Assembly: GCA_027063755.1 (NCBI GenBank)
Contig: JAMORD010000044.1
Location: 1 to 11,188 of the forward strand
Source of the DNA: a bacterium
GTDB taxonomy: Bacteria > Coprothermobacterota > Coprothermobacteria > Coprothermobacterales > JAADFF01
Length of the DNA: 11,188 nucleotides
Reading direction: 5' to 3'
A program made the position numbers and the translations under genes. The notes under the pieces are model-generated. The model was not told the origin of the DNA and searched no databases. It was given only the letters and a program-made list of their open reading frames with translations. Positions 1-10,897 of the stretch are shown piece after piece. Each line of letters begins with the position of its first letter. The stretch's first letter is position 1.

Positions 1-327
1 CGATCTGGTGAAGACCTTGTTATTGGGTTGCTATTATCTATAGTAATAAGTTGGATATTGGAAAAAAGAGATATACATAGTCACCTTGGCGATATTAGTC
101 GGACTTTACAACGATATCCTATAACTCTATTAAAAGGCATCTATGAAAGTATTGTGCTTACAATGGGATTTTCTAGCAAGTTAAGACGCAAAGTTGTACA
201 CAGACAGGTACATACCAAAGATGTATTTGCCAGTACAATCAACATAACAGCTACACCACTAACCATCGTCTTTGACTACGATAGCGAATCCGGCGAGTTG
301 TATATACACGAGGTGCATAAGCGGTGA
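1..327 (+). CDS. mnhE: Na+/H+ antiporter subunit E (MnhE/MrpE, MbhA-like), 5' truncated
   Basis: This is the C-terminal 108 residues of a small membrane subunit of Mrp-type cation/proton antiporters, a family of about 160 residues, so roughly the first 50 are outside the window. The reading frame is open back to base 1. The in-frame TTG at 28 has no ribosome binding site and is not taken as the start. Visible are a hydrophobic helix (LVIGLLLSIVISWIL) and then a soluble, basic C-terminal part. The family signature comes near the end: ITATPLTIVFDYD followed by GELYIHEV, matching the 'ITLTPGT...V...LYVH' pattern of MrpE. The stop overlaps the next start (GTGA), so the two genes are translationally coupled. 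In Mrp complexes this subunit is needed for assembly and activity rather than forming the ion channel itself. Confidence 0.85.
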   Translation, partial: RSGEDLVIGLLLSIVISWILEKRDIHSHLGDISRTLQRYPITLLKGIYESIVLTMGFSSKLRRKVVHRQVHTKDVFASTINITATPLTIVFDYDSESGELYIHEVHKR

Positions 328-569
328 ATATTGCAGCATATATTATTTTGTTTGCAGCATTTATAAGCGGTCTATACATTATCAAATCACATAACACATG
401 GGAAATGCTTCTTGGATATAGTAGTCTAACAGTAAAACTCATCGCCCTAATGATTCTCTTCTCTATTTCCATTAGGGCAGAATGGGCGATAGATGCTGCT
501 ATAGCTTATATGATGCTAAGCATAGGTGGGCTAATGATACTGGCATATTTTAACTCAAGGAGGAGTTAA
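324..569 (+). CDS. mnhF: Na+/H+ antiporter subunit F (MnhF/MrpF, MbhB-like)
   Basis: An 81-residue integral membrane protein of the MrpF family, whose usual length is 80-95 residues. It has three hydrophobic helices, roughly residues 3-20, 31-50 and 56-75, and a short basic tail (NSRRS). The helix 2 to helix 3 region, with an acidic residue in AIDAAIAYMML, corresponds to the conserved D.AL stretch of MrpF. The start is GTG at 324, supported by a GAGGTG box about 9 bases upstream and by the 4-base overlap with the preceding stop. It is part of the antiporter operon and is expected to act in the cytoplasmic membrane next to subunits E and G. Confidence 0.85.
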   Translation: MNIAAYIILFAAFISGLYIIKSHNTWEMLLGYSSLTVKLIALMILFSISIRAEWAIDAAIAYMMLSIGGLMILAYFNSRRS

Positions 570-570
570 T

Positions 571-837
571 ATGCAGATTATCTCTTACATTCTCATCATA
601 ACCGGGGCTGTATCTATGGTTATAGGCACTTTCGGTATGTGGTATAGAAAGCACTATATGGAAAAACTACATTTCTTGACTATATCCGACACCATAGGAA
701 TGCTACTATTCCTTATTGGTATCATGTTCCAATTCCACGACATTTGGAAAACAGGTTTCATGCTACTTCTATATGCCATACTTGGTCCCATGACAAGCCA
801 TATACTGGCAAGGGCCTTCTACCTGAGGAGAAACTAA
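571..837 (+). CDS. mnhG: Na+/H+ antiporter subunit G (MnhG/MrpG, MbhC-like)
   Basis: An 88-residue membrane protein of the MrpG family with three predicted helices. The N-terminal half, GAVSMVIGTFGMWY followed by YMEKLHFLTISDTIGMLL, matches the family pattern of a glycine-rich first helix and then 'Y.RLH..T...T.G'. The ATG at 571 follows a near-perfect AAGGAGG box and lies 1 base after the mnhF stop. The stop at 835-837 is 1 base before the next gene. Together with E and F it forms the small-subunit block found in both Mrp antiporters and archaeal Mbh-type complexes. Confidence 0.88.
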   Translation: MQIISYILIITGAVSMVIGTFGMWYRKHYMEKLHFLTISDTIGMLLFLIGIMFQFHDIWKTGFMLLLYAILGPMTSHILARAFYLRRN

Positions 838-838
838 C

Positions 839-1399
839 ATGGAGGTTACCTTAGGCTTTATGGGAATTATATTTGCAATTGGCGTTGTCCTCAGTCATAA
901 TCCTATGCGTGCTGTCATATTTATGGGAGCATTTAGTATCACCATGGCCACATATTACTATGCTATGGGAGCTCCCGATGTGGCTATGGCAGAAGCCACG
1001 TTGGGAGCAGTATTTACAACATTCATCTATGTAGTTGCCATGAAACACCGTGGCTCTATTAAAGTCGCATATATCAGAAAAGAACCCTTCTTCTTCAAAA
1101 CCAATAACGGCTTTGCTGGTAGTGAATATCATCTACTAAAGCGATTTGCCGACAAAAATGCCATGCACCTTGAAATTACCCGCATCGCAGAAATACCTTC
1201 CCACAAAGACTTACAAACAGACAGATCCTTTCAGTTTGACATCATATGCGGAGGACTAAAAGATAGTCTATCTTTGCCCGGATACACCCCTTTACCATAT
1301 CACTTAAGAGGATTTGCCATATATGTAAAAACCGATAGTGAAGACATATATGAAAGTTTAGAAGACTTTCTTGTAGGTGATGTCAATGAAGAATATTAG
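839..1399 (+). CDS. MbhD-like antiporter subunit (DUF4040) fused to a solute-binding-protein-like lobe
   Basis: This 186-residue protein has two parts. Residues 1-70 are three membrane helices (about 3-19, 23-42 and 49-67) with the DUF4040/MbhD signature GAPDVAMAEATLGA at 44-57. That domain equals MbhD and a C-terminal segment of MrpA. Residues 74-178 are soluble and resemble the N-terminal lobe of family 3 (amino-acid type) solute-binding proteins. The order of elements fits: a KVAYIRKEPFFF strand, GFAGSEYHLLKRFADKNAMH at 91-110 like 'G..VGFDVDLLKAIAKRLG', FDIICGGL at 133-140, then GYTPLPYHLRGFAIYVK and ESLEDF. Only one lobe is present. Basic residues after helix 3 (KHRGSIK) suggest this domain faces the cytoplasm. 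The ATG follows a GAGGAG box. The MbhD assignment is firm. The binding-lobe call is by pattern only, and any ligand is unknown. Confidence 0.75.
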   Translation: MEVTLGFMGIIFAIGVVLSHNPMRAVIFMGAFSITMATYYYAMGAPDVAMAEATLGAVFTTFIYVVAMKHRGSIKVAYIRKEPFFFKTNNGFAGSEYHLLKRFADKNAMHLEITRIAEIPSHKDLQTDRSFQFDIICGGLKDSLSLPGYTPLPYHLRGFAIYVKTDSEDIYESLEDFLVGDVNEEY

Positions 1400-2072
1400 G
1401 CTTATATCCGTTTTATTATTTGGCATTTTTATCTCCATGCTCCTTGTATCGGCTGAAACTATTTCATATGTTCAGCCCGATAATGTTACTGGTGCCGTCA
1501 AAGACACCGGTGCCATCAATGTCATAGCAGCGTACTACTTAGGATACAGACTGTTTGATACACTCTTTGAAATATTGGTATTCACAGTTGCAGTACAGGG
1601 AGTTGTATATCTACTGGGGCATATACCAACCTTGGAACAACACAAACCCATGCGTGAAAAGGCCATTATCATATACACAGATCTTATATTCGGAGCATCG
1701 CTTATCACAGGTATGTATATCGCAGTAGCCGGTCACATCAGTGCTGGTGGAGGCTTTGTTGGAGGCATTGTAGGAGCTACAGGAGCCGTTTTAGTGTTTC
1801 TTACAATGCCCATGGAAGATATTGAAAACGAGTTCAATCACAAGTACATGGCCATATGGGAAGCTGTTATCCTTATTACCATATTTATACTGGCTCTTAT
1901 ACCAATTTTAAAGGGCATGAGCCCTATGGAAAACTTTCTACCTCTTGGCACTCCGGGACATATCATCAGTGGTGGAATTATACCCATTGTTGACACACTC
2001 ATAGGCATCAAAGTGCTTATTGGTGCCGTTACCATAGCCCAGACATTTATCAAGCACAGGGGGGTATTCTGA
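1386..2072 (+). CDS. mnhB: Fused MbhE-like and MnhB antiporter subunit
   Basis: This 228-residue membrane protein joins two units usually separate in Mbh complexes. Residues 1-80 are MbhE-like: a signal-like first helix (5-21), a polar loop, then a helix carrying AINVIAAYYLGYRLFDTLFE, which matches the conserved 'A...I...YR.FDTLGE' stretch. Residues 90-228 are MnhB/MrpB (MbhF-like), with the family signature GHISAGGGFVGGIVGA at 117-132 and further helices near 157-175 and 195-221. The start is placed at ATG 1386 because AGGTGA sits 5 bases upstream. GTG 1377 and ATG 1380 are in frame but overlap that box. The gene overlaps its upstream neighbour by 14 bases and ends in a TGATG overlap with mnhC, so translation is coupled. 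In MrpA-containing complexes the MbhE segment belongs to the MrpA C-terminus. Confidence 0.85.
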   Translation: MKNIRLISVLLFGIFISMLLVSAETISYVQPDNVTGAVKDTGAINVIAAYYLGYRLFDTLFEILVFTVAVQGVVYLLGHIPTLEQHKPMREKAIIIYTDLIFGASLITGMYIAVAGHISAGGGFVGGIVGATGAVLVFLTMPMEDIENEFNHKYMAIWEAVILITIFILALIPILKGMSPMENFLPLGTPGHIISGGIIPIVDTLIGIKVLIGAVTIAQTFIKHRGVF

Positions 2073-2410
2073 TGATTTACATTGCCATAGCCGTTGTAAT
2101 ATTTGCCATTGGAGGAATAGGTATTATCTGGAAAGATAATATACTTCTCAAACTGCTATCTTTGGGCATTATGAATGCCGGTGTGGTTGCATTGTTCGTA
2201 TCTATTGCAGGGCTAAAATACCGTATACCTGCCATTCTTAACACCAGTGGACCCTATGCCGACCCTTTACCTCAAGCTGTTATTATCACATCTATTGTTA
2301 TTGGCTTTGCTACAATGTCATTGGCACTGGTCTTTACCATGCTTATCAGTTTAAAAAAAGGAACTCTTAGCAGTAAAAAACTTCAGGAGGATATAGATCG
2401 TGAGCATTGA
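2072..2410 (+). CDS. mnhC: Na+/H+ antiporter subunit C (MnhC/MrpC, NuoK-like, MbhG-like)
   Basis: A 112-residue membrane protein of the MrpC/NuoK family with three helices, about 2-19, 24-46 and 67-93. Recognisable stretches are LLKLLSLGIMNAGVVALFV at 25-43 (NuoK helix 2) and GPYADPLPQAVIITSIVIGF at 60-79, a hallmark of MrpC. The usual GxNS..G loop is reduced to NTSG. The ATG shares its A with the previous stop, and a G-rich SD box (AGGGGGG, 2058-2064) lies 7 bases upstream. The polar C-terminal tail overlaps the start of mnhD by 11 bases. In related complexes this subunit lines the proton path next to the MnhD-type channel. Confidence 0.92.
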   Translation: MIYIAIAVVIFAIGGIGIIWKDNILLKLLSLGIMNAGVVALFVSIAGLKYRIPAILNTSGPYADPLPQAVIITSIVIGFATMSLALVFTMLISLKKGTLSSKKLQEDIDREH

Positions 2411-3857
2411 CATTCAGATATATCCCTCACTTCTAACCTTAGTACCAATGTTATTTGCCCCCCTTTTTTTACTCTTTAGAACCAAACTGGTGCAGAAGCT
2501 ATTGGCGTCATTGATTATCATTCTTGATTTGCTTATCATCTATAGGTTAACCCTTATCATGCCTTTAGATGAATATACCGGCGGTTGGATACTCAGGGGC
2601 ATACACCTAAGATTTGACAATCTTTCGCTAATATACACACTGCTATTTGTCACAGTAATAGGCACGAGTTGGCTCTCATCATTTAAAAAAAACTATCCTC
2701 CACTATTCTATTTCCTCACCAGCATACTCTTATCAACACTCAACACATCGGCCATTACACTTGACCTTTTCAATATATATGTCATGCTTGAACTGTCTTC
2801 TATCATTGCGTATATTCTCATCGCCATGAAAGATAATTGGAAACATCTATGGGCATCACTTAAATATCTCATGATCAGTTACTTTGCCTTTACCATGTAT
2901 CTTACAGCTGTAGGTCTTATATATATGCACACAGGAACATTGGATATTTCCCGTATTACTGGTGAAATACCACCAATTATAGTATCTATGCTTATTGTGC
3001 CTCTACTGTTAAAATCCGGCGTATTCCCTGTTTCTATGTGGCTACCTGCAGCCCATAGTCTTGCCCCCACAGAGGTGTCTGCTATATTGTCTGGTAGTTT
3101 TGTAAAAATGGGAAGTATCGTTATATTTAGACTTATTAATACACCTATACTCAAACAGGCTTATACTCCTATAACACTAATTGCCCTCCTATCAGCACTT
3201 ACAGGGGTTATTCTTGCATACAACGAATCAAATGTCAAGCGTATACTGGCATTTCACACAATATCTCAGATGGGCTATGTTCTTGCCGGAGGCCCTGTAT
3301 ACGGAGCACTCCATGCATTCAATCACGGTATCTTTAAATCTTTACTATTCTTCACTGTAGGAGACCAAGTAGAAGAAACAGGCCATTACGATATAAAGGC
3401 ATTAAAACATGCGAAATTTCCAATGCATAGATATATCTTTTTAGTCATCGGCGTCTTAGGTATTAGCGGAGTACCATTGTTTAGCGGTTTTATCAGCAAA
3501 AGTATGATTATTCACCATATACCCATATACGGAAAAGTGGTACTAATACTGGCCTCTGTAGGCACCGTGGCCAGTATGTCAAAGCTTGTCAGTATTGGAT
3601 ACCGAAAAAGCAGTATCAAACTAATACCACACTATATCATAATGGCTACCATTATCATCTTGGTAGGCATAAGGTATATAGAACATGTTATATCGTTGTG
3701 GACTATCATTGAGAGCCTCATTGTCATAATAGTAGGCATCACCATATTCCTTGTGATACATCCCAAACACATACCAAGAATACTTGAAAAACTTGATATT
3801 ATGGTAATTGAATATATGCTTACACTAATCACTGTGTGGGCAATTTTATATATGTAG
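2400..3857 (+). CDS. mnhD: Na+/H+ antiporter subunit D (MnhD/MrpD, MbhH-like proton channel)
   Basis: A 485-residue polytopic protein (about 14 helices) of the proton-conducting NuoL/M/N and MrpA/D family. Functional residues are visible: Glu131 in VMLELSSI (helix 5 glutamate), Lys205 in LLLKSGVFP (helix 7 lysine), Lys236 in SGSFVKMGS, His305/His309/Lys313 in HAFNHGIFK, and Lys395 in the C-terminal half. PVSMWLPAAHSLAPTEVSAI at 210-229 is the classical family signature. The GTG start has AGGAGG 9 bases upstream and overlaps mnhC. It is the only large channel-type subunit visible; no MrpA N-terminal half and no hydrogenase or dehydrogenase gene follows. It should carry ion translocation in the membrane, but whether the physiological exchange is Na+/H+ cannot be read from the sequence. 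Confidence 0.93.
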   Translation: MSIDIQIYPSLLTLVPMLFAPLFLLFRTKLVQKLLASLIIILDLLIIYRLTLIMPLDEYTGGWILRGIHLRFDNLSLIYTLLFVTVIGTSWLSSFKKNYPPLFYFLTSILLSTLNTSAITLDLFNIYVMLELSSIIAYILIAMKDNWKHLWASLKYLMISYFAFTMYLTAVGLIYMHTGTLDISRITGEIPPIIVSMLIVPLLLKSGVFPVSMWLPAAHSLAPTEVSAILSGSFVKMGSIVIFRLINTPILKQAYTPITLIALLSALTGVILAYNESNVKRILAFHTISQMGYVLAGGPVYGALHAFNHGIFKSLLFFTVGDQVEETGHYDIKALKHAKFPMHRYIFLVIGVLGISGVPLFSGFISKSMIIHHIPIYGKVVLILASVGTVASMSKLVSIGYRKSSIKLIPHYIIMATIIILVGIRYIEHVISLWTIIESLIVIIVGITIFLVIHPKHIPRILEKLDIMVIEYMLTLITVWAILYM

Positions 3858-3869
3858 AGGTGAGTCAAT

Positions 3870-5273
3870 ATGATTTATGGAAAGCTGTTAGATTTTTTAG
3901 GACAAAAAAGATTATCGGACAAAAAATACGCCCGTTACATTACAAGTAGCTATGTAGAGAATCCGTATATAGTCTATCGTGGCGCAAGGTATTTATGGAA
4001 AAAAGGACACCATGAACTAGCCAAAAGAACTGTGAAAAAACATCTGGACATGAAACCTGATGCAAGACTTACAAGATTATACGCTTTCTTTCTACTAAAA
4101 GAACGGAAAGAAGAGCTGGCCATAAAACTTTACCACAGATACATAAAAATACAGCCAGATAACTTATGGGCTCGCATATTCCTTGGAGACTTGTATTACT
4201 TCTTTGTGAATGAAAAAGATAAGGGAATAGAAATATGGGAAGAGATTCTAAATATGGAAGAAGAAATCACTAAAAGTACTATTGATCCTGCCAGATACGT
4301 ATATAAAAGACTTACCAAAGTATACATGGAGAAAGAAGATATTGACAAAGCACTTGAACTATATGAAAAGTTCTTGGCACTCACACCATCAAACTTCTAT
4401 GAAACAGATTTCATCAATTTGGCCACCATCTATCTCATAAAAGGTATGGAAGAAAAGGCCAAACATGTTATGGAAATGGGAATAGCCGTCTCCCCCAAAT
4501 ATTACAAGCTAAGACAGATGTACGAAGACATATTTGGTGTGAAAATAAAAGCAAGGGAACATAAGTGGGTTGCCGAAGTTAAACAGAAGTATCCAGACAT
4601 AGAAAAAATACCTATAAAGACAAAAATTGTTGATGAACGAGATGAAATTTGGGAAATAGCCGATCTGTATACAAGAAATATTAGACAAGAGGGAGACATT
4701 ATCGTCATTGCTTCGTGTGTGGCAGCTATAACAGAAGGTATGTTCTACATGGCTGATGGCGTAGACTATGGAACACTGGCATGGCTCCTTGCATCATTTG
4801 TAGAAAAGAAAAATCCATTCCACAGTCTTAAAGAGCACCATGGTGAACCATTTTCCCTTCTTGCCCCACTGGCCAATCCTATGGCCATGCAGGTCCTTAT
4901 AGAAGAAACAGGAACACTGCCTATTATAAAAGCAGCAATTCATGGTGCCATAGGTAGATTGACAGGCAAAAGAGGTATGTTTTATAAAACAGCCGGTGAT
5001 CAGGCTGCCCTTATAGACGATATGCCAGCCAGCTTAGCCCCATATGATTACTACATTATTTTAGGCCCTGAAGATTCTGATGCTGTGGCCATGCAGATTA
5101 AAGAGATTACTGGCCTTGAAGCGGCCATTGTGGATGCCAACGATTTAACCGGTGCATGGGTTGTCGGAGCATCTGACGGTGTTGATAGAAAACTCCTTGA
5201 AGATGTACTTATGGACAACCCCGCTGGTAATCAAGATCAGCAGACACCTGTTATGCTTGTAAGAGGTCTTTAA
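3870..5273 (+). CDS. TPR-repeat protein with a C-terminal F420-0:gamma-glutamyl ligase (CofE)-like domain
   Basis: A 467-residue soluble protein without a signal peptide. Residues about 31-210 hold five helical TPR-like units, for example GHHELAKRTVKKHLDMKP, EELAIKLYHRYIKIQPDN and DIDKALELYEKFLALTPSN. Residues about 247-467 resemble the F420-0:glutamate ligase fold (CofE-like). This region starts with IPIK and EGDIIVIASCVAAITEG and continues with GRLTGKRGMFYKTAG at 362-376, LGPEDSDAVA at 399-408, VDANDLTG at 421-428 and VVGASDGVD at 431-439. Archaeal CofE adds glutamate to F420-0 using GTP. Bacterial homologues in organisms without F420 have no settled role, so the substrate here is unknown. 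The gene follows mnhD by 12 bases with a GAGGTGAG SD box, so it probably belongs to the antiporter operon. Its last 23 bases overlap the convergent racemase gene. Confidence 0.72.
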   Translation: MIYGKLLDFLGQKRLSDKKYARYITSSYVENPYIVYRGARYLWKKGHHELAKRTVKKHLDMKPDARLTRLYAFFLLKERKEELAIKLYHRYIKIQPDNLWARIFLGDLYYFFVNEKDKGIEIWEEILNMEEEITKSTIDPARYVYKRLTKVYMEKEDIDKALELYEKFLALTPSNFYETDFINLATIYLIKGMEEKAKHVMEMGIAVSPKYYKLRQMYEDIFGVKIKAREHKWVAEVKQKYPDIEKIPIKTKIVDERDEIWEIADLYTRNIRQEGDIIVIASCVAAITEGMFYMADGVDYGTLAWLLASFVEKKNPFHSLKEHHGEPFSLLAPLANPMAMQVLIEETGTLPIIKAAIHGAIGRLTGKRGMFYKTAGDQAALIDDMPASLAPYDYYIILGPEDSDAVAMQIKEITGLEAAIVDANDLTGAWVVGASDGVDRKLLEDVLMDNPAGNQDQQTPVMLVRGL

Positions 5274-7578: not shown

Positions 7579-8262
7579 TTACAATAGTTCAGAAAACTCC
7601 CTCTCTATATCTCTATATGCTATTAGCATTTCCAACCATCTGGGCACATATACATCTTTTAGCTCTACATATTTTAGGTTTTCACCTAAAAAGTGTTTAT
7701 ATTCCTCAATCTCCAGTCTAAAACCACTATCCCACAGCTGATTACCACTAACCCATAGTGTGTTTACAGCAGTTATCTCCCATTTTCCTCCCATAATATT
7801 TATGGGTTTCTTGCGAGTGCCATACAAAATAAGACTGTCTACTTTCTCTGTTTTCAGAATAAGATTTTCTATATTGCTATACCTTACATGAAAATGTTTC
7901 AGATGTTCAGACATAACATCCACATTTGACACACTGCTACCTGACACCTCTAAAACCTCAGACACCCGAACTTGAGCCCTTTCCATTGTGCTATTCATAA
8001 AAATCATTTGTCCTACTTTGGCTTCTAAATAAGAAACACGAACACCATCAAGAACCAGAATATCTAAATAACCACGAATGGCAATGTCATCAACAGTGCC
8101 CCCCCTTATAACAAGGATACCGCCGTTTACCTCTGCAGCAACAATACCGGCAGAAGAGGAAGACATCATATCAAGAATATATCCATCATAGACGCCAAGT
8201 GGCGTCTTTACAGATATCTTATTGCTTAAATCTAAAACATTATCACCAACCATAATCTTCAC
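7579..8262 (-). CDS. Unrecognised beta-strand-rich protein, first gene of the M20/racemase operon
   Basis: A 227-residue protein that I do not recognise. It has no signal peptide and no membrane helix. From about residue 10 to 150 it is a run of short alternating hydrophobic strands separated by glycine, aspartate or serine turns at intervals of about 20 residues, for example GGILVIRGGTVDDIAIRG and LDILVLDGVRVSYLEAKVG. This suggests a beta-solenoid or similar stacked-strand fold. The last 70 residues are more charged and helical (RLEIEEYKHFLGE, MLIAYRDIEREFSELL). The start is taken as GTG 8262 because GGAGGTGA lies 5 bases upstream; GTG 8277 is in frame but precedes that box. It is probably co-transcribed with the M20 hydrolase. 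Transcription diverges from the flagellin gene, about 125 bases away start to start. No function is proposed. Confidence 0.72.
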   Translation of the reverse strand: MKIMVGDNVLDLSNKISVKTPLGVYDGYILDMMSSSSAGIVAAEVNGGILVIRGGTVDDIAIRGYLDILVLDGVRVSYLEAKVGQMIFMNSTMERAQVRVSEVLEVSGSSVSNVDVMSEHLKHFHVRYSNIENLILKTEKVDSLILYGTRKKPINIMGGKWEITAVNTLWVSGNQLWDSGFRLEIEEYKHFLGENLKYVELKDVYVPRWLEMLIAYRDIEREFSELL

Positions 8263-8304
8263 ATCTATCACCTCCACATGTCTATATTCTAACCCAAGGG
8301 GTAT

Positions 8305-9832: not shown

Positions 9833-9860
9833 AAAAAATAGGGCCCTATGGTATGGGCCC
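9833..9860 (-). terminator. Intrinsic terminator downstream of tRNA-Ala
   Basis: On the minus strand, GGGCCC (9860-9855) pairs with GGGCCC (9846-9841) over an 8-base loop. It is followed by TA and six U residues (from the A-run at 9833-9838). It lies 31 bases beyond the tRNA 3' end and would also end any read-through transcript from the ABC transporter genes. Confidence 0.8.
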
Positions 9861-9890
9861 CTGTATCAGTAGGGGGTGGTTCCTAAGAGG

Positions 9891-9965
9891 TGGTGGAGCC
9901 GACGGGATTCGAACCCGTGGCCTCCTGCATGCCAAGCAGGCGCGCTCCCACTGCGCTACGGCCCC
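9891..9965 (-). tRNA. tRNA-Ala (anticodon GGC), CCA encoded
   Basis: The 75-base minus-strand sequence folds into a complete cloverleaf. The acceptor is GGGGCCG with CGGCTCC, including the G3-U70 wobble pair that is the main identity element for alanyl-tRNA synthetase. The D-arm is GCGC/GCGC with a short 7-base loop. The anticodon arm is CCTGC/GCAGG with loop TTGGCAT, giving anticodon GGC, which reads GCC and GCU codons. The T-arm is ACGGG/CCCGT with loop TTCGAAT. The discriminator base is A and the CCA end is encoded at 9893-9891. Confidence 0.97.
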
Positions 9966-9984
9966 ACCTTCAAGTCGCAAAAGT

Positions 9985-10013
9985 ATTATATCATCATCCC
10001 CCTACCATGTCAA
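9985..10013 (-). promoter_or_regulatory. Consensus sigma-70/SigA promoter of tRNA-Ala
   Basis: On the minus strand TTGACA (10013-10008) and TATAAT (9990-9985) are separated by exactly 17 bases, a perfect match to the housekeeping consensus in both boxes and spacing. The tRNA begins 19 bases after the -10 box, leaving a leader of about 12 bases to be removed by RNase P. The promoter sits in the 56-base gap after the ABC permease stop. Confidence 0.92.
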
Positions 10014-10021
10014 CACCTATA

Positions 10022-10897
10022 CTACACCCCTTCAGATACGGCAAACTGCCAACCTGCAAGAAGCACAAACACAATAGCAAAGCCACTCATAACAAGAATA
10101 TCTGTCTGCATAGAAAAGTGCGTAACATCAGGTCTTGTAGACATTACAGAATTAAGCATATCCATAATAGGCTGAAGAGTCTTCATAGCCTGTGGTGGTA
10201 AGTTCTGAGGTATCTGTGGCACAGCTATAGTCTGAACTTTTATCATAGATTTGGTTATATGTCTCATAAGATCTACAGCATAAGTCAGAGGGTTAATATA
10301 CACAAACCATTTGAGCCAATTGGGAATATTGTCTATAGGAAAGAAAGCACCGGATAAAAAGAGCATAGGTTGTACAATCATATTCATCAGCGCCATAAAG
10401 TTTTCTGTGGTTCTCAATGCACTCCCCATAAATATGCCAAGGCCACCAACCATAATACCCAAAGCAAAAGTTACTACCACAATCTTTAATGTCATCACAA
10501 TGTCTGGACGGATACCAAGAAAATAACCGATAATCATGAATATAATCCCTTGAAGTGTCGCAACAGTAGCAGAACCAAGAATACGCCCAAGAACAACCCA
10601 TGTCGGTCTTACAGGAGCAACCATAAGCTCTTTGAGAAAACCAAACTCCCTATCCCATATAACGGTGATACCTCCCATAAAAGCTGTCATGAATACTGTC
10701 ATAGCCAAAATCCCGGGGAATAGGAACTTCATATAGTCAAATCCCATAAGGTTCTCAGGAAAAACGCTCTTAATACCATAACCCATGACAATGAGAAACA
10801 TTAGTGGCTGGAAAAACATGGCTATCATTCTACCTTTGTCAAGGATATACCTACGAAGTTCTCGCCACCACACAATATATGCAACCTTAACCCCCAT
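10022..10897 (-). CDS. ABC-2 type transporter permease (DrrB/NodJ-like exporter subunit)
   Basis: A 291-residue integral membrane protein with six predicted helices, near 24-42, 57-78, 106-126, 136-157, 167-187 and 268-285. Family marks are REFGFLKELMVAPVRPTWVV at 83-102, the cytoplasmic coupling segment, and LSGAFFPIDNIPNWLKWFVY at 181-200 followed by INPLTYAVDLMR, typical of ABC-2 exporters. The loop between the last two helices (about 213-266) is long, Pro/Gln/Met-rich and predicted to be outside the cytoplasm. ATG 10897 is chosen because AGGAGG lies 8 bases upstream; GTG 10906 would start inside that box. It pairs with the ATPase gene 5 bases upstream to form an exporter. The substrate cannot be read from the sequence; drugs, lipids or polysaccharides are all possible for this family. 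Confidence 0.88.
   Translation of the reverse strand: MGVKVAYIVWWRELRRYILDKGRMIAMFFQPLMFLIVMGYGIKSVFPENLMGFDYMKFLFPGILAMTVFMTAFMGGITVIWDREFGFLKELMVAPVRPTWVVLGRILGSATVATLQGIIFMIIGYFLGIRPDIVMTLKIVVVTFALGIMVGGLGIFMGSALRTTENFMALMNMIVQPMLFLSGAFFPIDNIPNWLKWFVYINPLTYAVDLMRHITKSMIKVQTIAVPQIPQNLPPQAMKTLQPIMDMLNSVMSTRPDVTHFSMQTDILVMSGFAIVFVLLAGWQFAVSEGV

Follow-up and report, generated by a model that had tools for sequence, protein, structure and literature searches.

The locus analysed here raises the question of why a subunit of an Mrp-type antiporter should carry a soluble domain resembling a solute-binding protein (SBP), and what this domain may do there. Mrp antiporters are relatives of the ion-pumping arm in respiratory complex I; how they are regulated is little understood. 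The gene lies at positions 839–1399 (+) of the window, that is, the whole stretch of 11,188 bp under study, which is a contig of the draft genome G000 (251 contigs, 88% complete). It is a genuine gene, and its open reading frame of 186 residues encodes an MbhD subunit with a soluble tail of approximately 115 residues. A protein with 92% identity is encoded in a second Dictyoglomota genome (locus L029, on a MAG contig). The MbhD identity proposed in the initial annotation was borne out by the Pfam profile PF13244, which matched residues 9–70 with 60.2 bits against the gathering score of 27.2 (E 2e-16). Two further MbhD genes of G000 (open frames of 81 and 85 aa) are both without the extension.

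The gene belongs to a cluster of the Mrp type with the order E-F-G-[MbhD-lobe]-MnhB-C-D, and the same cluster is complete in L029. The genes of the cluster and the parts of the MbhD protein are as follows.

1–327 (+), MrpE subunit, cut by the contig start (Pfam MNHE, E 1e-6; the full length in L029 is 123 aa)
324–569 (+), MrpF subunit (Pfam MrpF_PhaF, E 2e-4, just under the cut-off; operon position)
571–837 (+), MrpG subunit (Pfam PhaG_MnhG_YufB, E 8e-16)
839–1048 (+), MbhD transmembrane domain, residues 1–70 (Pfam MbhD, E 2e-16)
1052–1396 (+), single SBP family-3 lobe without lobe 2, residues 72–186 (tail HMM, PDB profile, dN/dS)
1058–1264 (+), N-terminal segment of lobe 1, residues 74–142, ending in FDIICGG (SBP HMM positions 26–124)
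1265–1312 (+), short linker, residues 143–158, at the site of lobe 2 of classical SBPs (alignments)
1313–1375 (+), strand and helix, residues 159–179, probable returning end of lobe 1 (alignment with L036)
1386–2072 (+), MnhB-type subunit with MbhE-like N-terminus (Pfam MnhB, E 6e-17; MbhE, E 0.0035)
2072–2410 (+), MrpC subunit (Pfam Oxidored_q2, E 1e-18)
2400–3857 (+), MrpD-type antiporter subunit (Pfam Proton_antipo_M, E 8e-39; NCBIfam subunit D, E 1e-71)

Alternative starts of the MnhB-type gene are GTG at 1377 and ATG at 1380. The MrpD-type protein is the sole large antiporter-like subunit of the cluster, and its surroundings, in the window as in L029, show no MrpA N-terminal or NuoL-like subunit. 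Conservation beside Mnh/Mrp genes, to which the initial annotation had attached weight, was found at each of the 60 loci examined in Thermotogota and cyanobacteria: mnhB adjoins the MbhD-lobe gene at each of them, together with at least one further gene of mrpF, mrpG, mrpC and mrpD.

The initial annotation had also suggested a search for the same two-domain architecture in other genomes. It was found in Thermotogota, in a degenerate form in cyanobacteria, and in a fourth phylum (that of G326); with Dictyoglomota, the MbhD-SBP fusion spans at least four phyla of bacteria. Of 103 Thermotogota genomes, about 70, T. maritima included, gave matches reaching well into the tail. The Thermotogota label rests on genome G149: over 227 residues, its arginine-binding protein (ArgBP) shows no difference from chain 4prs, the ArgBP of T. 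maritima. The T. maritima protein (L052 in G149) has the same domains, operon and missing ligand Arg as the window protein, and the closest Thermotogota homologue of the latter is L036 (40% identity). The phylum of G054 is probably the Cyanobacteria, given that four control genomes match NF005628, one of them over the cut-off; we take this one to be Synechococcus elongatus. The PRK07377 cut-off is exceeded in 43 of 117 cyanobacterial genomes. In the fourth phylum, 54 of 100 genomes match and the tails are longer. Within Dictyoglomota the fusion is confined to the genus of the window (two of nine genomes); the contig profile scan gave one relative. In one Thermotogota genome (G100:C13:225024-225682) the MbhD-SBP gene appears broken, with two overlapping matches in different frames and stops in the first.

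The cyanobacterial proteins (PRK07377, NCBIfam NF005627–NF005630) are MbhD/DUF4040 proteins of group 3 Mrp clusters. They share with the window protein a soluble tail of about 115 residues after MbhD and the order G – MbhD-tail – MnhB. The PRK07377 match covers residues 13–115 of the window protein and so extends into its tail; the scores stay below the cut-offs: 31.9 vs 151 bits for NF005628 and 34.3 vs 149 bits for NF005630. MbhD-SBP is a large MbhD subfamily without a name, and its cyanobacterial form is listed in NCBIfam only as 'hypothetical protein' (PRK07377). A literature search covering open PMC papers found no paper describing the fusion. For Anabaena, the gene all1838, named mrpA, is reported to influence sensitivity to alkali and Na+ (PMC5703873). 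The extension had been regarded as unusual for MbhD. This holds only in part: it is a constant part of the large subfamily and therefore not peculiar to the window genome, which goes some way towards the refuting outcome named in the initial annotation.

The evidence that the tail descends from family-3 SBPs (SBP3) comes through the relatives. The Pfam model SBP_bac_3 (PF00497) aligns to residues 76–142 of the window protein with 12.4 bits (E 0.14), below the gathering score of 26.4, and the window protein alone against PDB gives weak SBP and MltF matches (E 0.09–0.2). Some Thermotogota and fourth-phylum homologues pass the gathering score (38.4, 31.6 and 38.0 bits). Significant matches include the Thermotogota homologue L005/L031 (E 1.2e-9) and the fourth-phylum L098 (E 1.7e-9), and SBP_bac_3 is matched at E 1 or better by 14 of 19 aligned family members (best 1.9e-18). 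An HMM of 12 Thermotogota tails, built with the window protein left out, scores the window tail at 45.1 bits, and none of 20,000 shuffled tails rose above 12.1. The window pair (window and L029) aligns by hhalign to the Thermotogota tails with E 3e-12, and these to true SBP3s from the same genomes with E 5e-12. A profile of 14 tails searched against PDB retrieved SBP3 proteins (GlnPQ SBDs, 5e-16; AncQR, 6e-13; T. maritima ArgBP). In these alignments both segments of lobe 1 are covered and lobe 2 is bridged. Judged from these comparisons, the SBP resemblance is homology, and the lobe-1 ancestry first read from the single protein stands, as does its extent from about residue 72 to the stop codon.

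MltF was rejected as a separate parent, since its match covers residues 66–121 only and MltF itself contains an SBP3-type domain. AlphaFold gave pLDDT 45 for the whole protein and 56 for the lobe alone (pTM 0.57); this confidence is low because the alignment depth is two (window and L029). Foldseek hits of the weak lobe model are mostly SBP3-like (top MltF, Hk1 and ArgBP D1, E 0.06–0.15), and VIA-align on the same model (pLDDT 56) gives Z of about 4 or less; these matches are suggestive at most, none being significant. For the cyanobacterial tail, Pfam gives no SBP match, and hhalign to the Thermotogota tails yields only E 6e-6. When cyanobacterial tails are compared directly with SBPs, the outcome is equivocal: the weak matches fall mostly on lobe-2 positions, and hence the homology of these tails rests on position and hhalign.

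The order of motifs had been said to follow the first lobe of SBP3 proteins. Lobe-1 homology was upheld; the tail, rather than stopping half-way, looks like a lobe from which lobe 2 was cut out. Both lobe-1 segments appear to be present in the tail, in order, with lobe 2 missing. The lobe-2 site of the window protein holds only about 16 residues, and two lobes joined by a hinge were not found in it. Residues 160–179 (FAIYVKTDSEDIYESLEDFL) align to the C-terminal return of L036 (YIFLVSKESEDIGEALRDFL) with a score of 48, the maximum in 2000 shuffles being 43. The N-terminal segment is strong by profile; the C-terminal one is weak (0.6–3.7 bits), and in an alternative register against true SBPs residues 159–179 can be placed on the first crossover strand. 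We regard these residues as the probable returning end of lobe 1, which is favoured but not proven; they fit it better than the crossover strand, which argues for excision of lobe 2 and not a half-way stop. Thermotogota tails are longer (153–190 aa), with residues left over where lobe 2 would sit, and they end in a further helix that the window protein lacks. The median tail length falls from 192 aa in the fourth phylum through 176 aa in Thermotogota to 118 aa in the window pair.

The ligand motif of SBP3 lobe 1 (D1) is GxTxxxxR, and the window protein has GGLKDSLSLPG there. None of the 46 parsed sequences, among them the window pair, has the ligand-contacting Arg at the aligned position. This leaves the ligand sensing proposed in the initial annotation unsupported. 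In such a scheme the lobe would bind a cytoplasmic metabolite or ion via the surviving face of the pocket and gate exchange at E52. We consider it rather unlikely: besides the missing Arg, the window protein has no lobe 2 to close over a ligand. Still, SBP3 domains do bind ligands, the lobe is constrained, as the dN/dS values given below indicate, and the fourth-phylum versions retain more of lobe 2. The claim that a single lobe cannot bind ligand is too strong: isolated T. maritima ArgBP D1 (F57W) binds arginine at about 3 μM (Kd 3.4 μM; PMC7589609). That protein (PDB 6gpc) resembles the window lobe in being a lone lobe 1 of the SBP3 type from which lobe 2 has been taken away; unlike it, ArgBP D1 is engineered and free-standing, and keeps the ligand motif (PMC7589609).

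The position of the lobe relative to the membrane bears on its role. The low-confidence AlphaFold model places three transmembrane helices at residues 2–18, 22–42 and 48–68. The mean K+R count is 3.1 after TM3, 1.2 in loop 1–2 and 0.05 in loop 2–3. These counts favour the TM3 tail side and, together with known MbhD structures, place the tail inside, so the lobe is probably cytoplasmic, as had been annotated. Since classical SBP3 domains work outside the membrane, an extracytoplasmic site is conceivable for the lobe as well; with positive charges flanking TM3 on the tail side, we hold this to be very improbable. The homologous MbsD likewise speaks against it, as its C-terminal tail reaches the peripheral arm (PMC7684303), which is cytoplasmic. 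Pyrococcus MbhD/MbsD of MBH/MBS share the three-helix MbhD with the ion-coupling Glu. They lack an SBP lobe, and in MbsD the tail, which lies at the dimer interface, is only short and rich in Trp (PMC7684303).

The key acidic residue E52 falls in APDVAMAE, after the (A/S)PDVA motif. The essential carboxylate Glu706, situated on the cation path of Mrp, belongs to the region homologous to MbhD (PMC7419157), and an ion-coupling Glu in the MbhD-type subunit is also supported by PMC7684303. By the shared motif, E52 would be the equivalent of Glu706. Of the homologues, 27 from cyanobacteria and 22 from Thermotogota keep the Glu. In seven Thermotogota MbhD-SBP proteins (seven of loci L031–L060) it is replaced by Gln, as in APDVAAVQ of L031–L035, and the neighbouring mrp genes are still kept.

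Selection was estimated from one pair, the window protein and L029. The dN/dS of the lobe is 0.04–0.07 and that of the transmembrane domain and neighbours 0.01–0.10, rough values because synonymous sites are near saturation. On these estimates the lobe is under strong purifying selection, constrained like its operon neighbours. Values as low as those of the antiporter subunits disfavour the view that the lobe is a decaying remnant, without a role, of a once functional SBP fusion. The variation of tail length among groups and the cyanobacterial tail, barely recognisable as SBP, would fit such decay; the retention of the tail in so many Thermotogota and cyanobacterial genomes would not, and we find a relic improbable.

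With the ligand-motif Arg lost, we prefer docking or regulation to ligand sensing of the classical kind. The protein is the MbhD subunit (MrpA C-terminal-like) of an Mrp-type Na+/H+ antiporter, extended by a single SBP3 lobe, and we lean towards this lobe serving as a docking or regulatory cap. Following TM3, the lobe would lie on the cytoplasmic face, near the ion-coupling site at E52, and, having neither the clamp nor the ligand-gripping Arg, would contact neighbouring subunits, the second protomer or a soluble partner. Through such contacts it might stabilise or tune the antiporter. A precedent comes from MBS, where, at the dimer interface, the C-terminal extension of MbsD enters the partner protomer's peripheral domain (PMC7684303). 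With this precedent, a cytoplasmic tail after TM3 and near E52 would be well placed to affect the coupling site or complex assembly. The docking model leans on this one precedent, and the MbsD extension is unrelated to the SBP lobe. A soluble domain right after the helix with the ion-coupling Glu offers a testable handle on Mrp regulation, and the handle exists in T. maritima and cyanobacteria, among others.

It is also possible, though doubtful, that an SBP3 domain was moved inside the cell, lost lobe 2 and became a regulator or ligand sensor of Mrp exchange. If true, an internal SBP3 domain on Mrp would be antiporter control of a kind not described before. The locus also looks like a natural instance of a binding protein that was trimmed from two lobes to one and came to lie in a new compartment.

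The history of the cluster was traced with an MnhB tree. The Dictyoglomota pair joins the Thermotogota locus L036 with support 98/92, and the Thermotogota set is paraphyletic around the pair, a single Thermotogota clade being rejected (p-AU 0.0004). Horizontal exchange with Thermotogota is likely, as far as this tree tells; its deeper order is unreliable because of the long branches L098, L008, L009 and L002. For the fourth-phylum L098, L155 and L161, the alignment with the SBP model continues into the lobe-2 region, and their fuller SBP domain is possibly an earlier stage of the same fusion. An ancestral MbhD would have gained a more complete SBP3 domain at its cytoplasmic end. Lobe 2 would then have been reduced in Thermotogota and the fourth phylum and removed in Dictyoglomota, and in cyanobacteria the whole SBP domain would have degenerated.

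Several minor observations were made. In the fourth phylum, L098 (1075–2310) and L146–L165 have MbhD followed by the fuller SBP domain, with a tail of about 190–200 aa. Directly after the Mrp cluster of the window, and in the same place in L029, a gene (3870–5273, +) encodes a protein with TPR repeats and a weak match to F420-0:gamma-glutamyl ligase (E 3e-4). An open reading frame of 232 aa at 7579–8277 (−) has no Pfam match at E 0.001. A tRNA-Ala (GGC) gene lies at 9891–9965 (−), and the open reading frames that overlap it, from 9853 to 10201 (+), are probably spurious.
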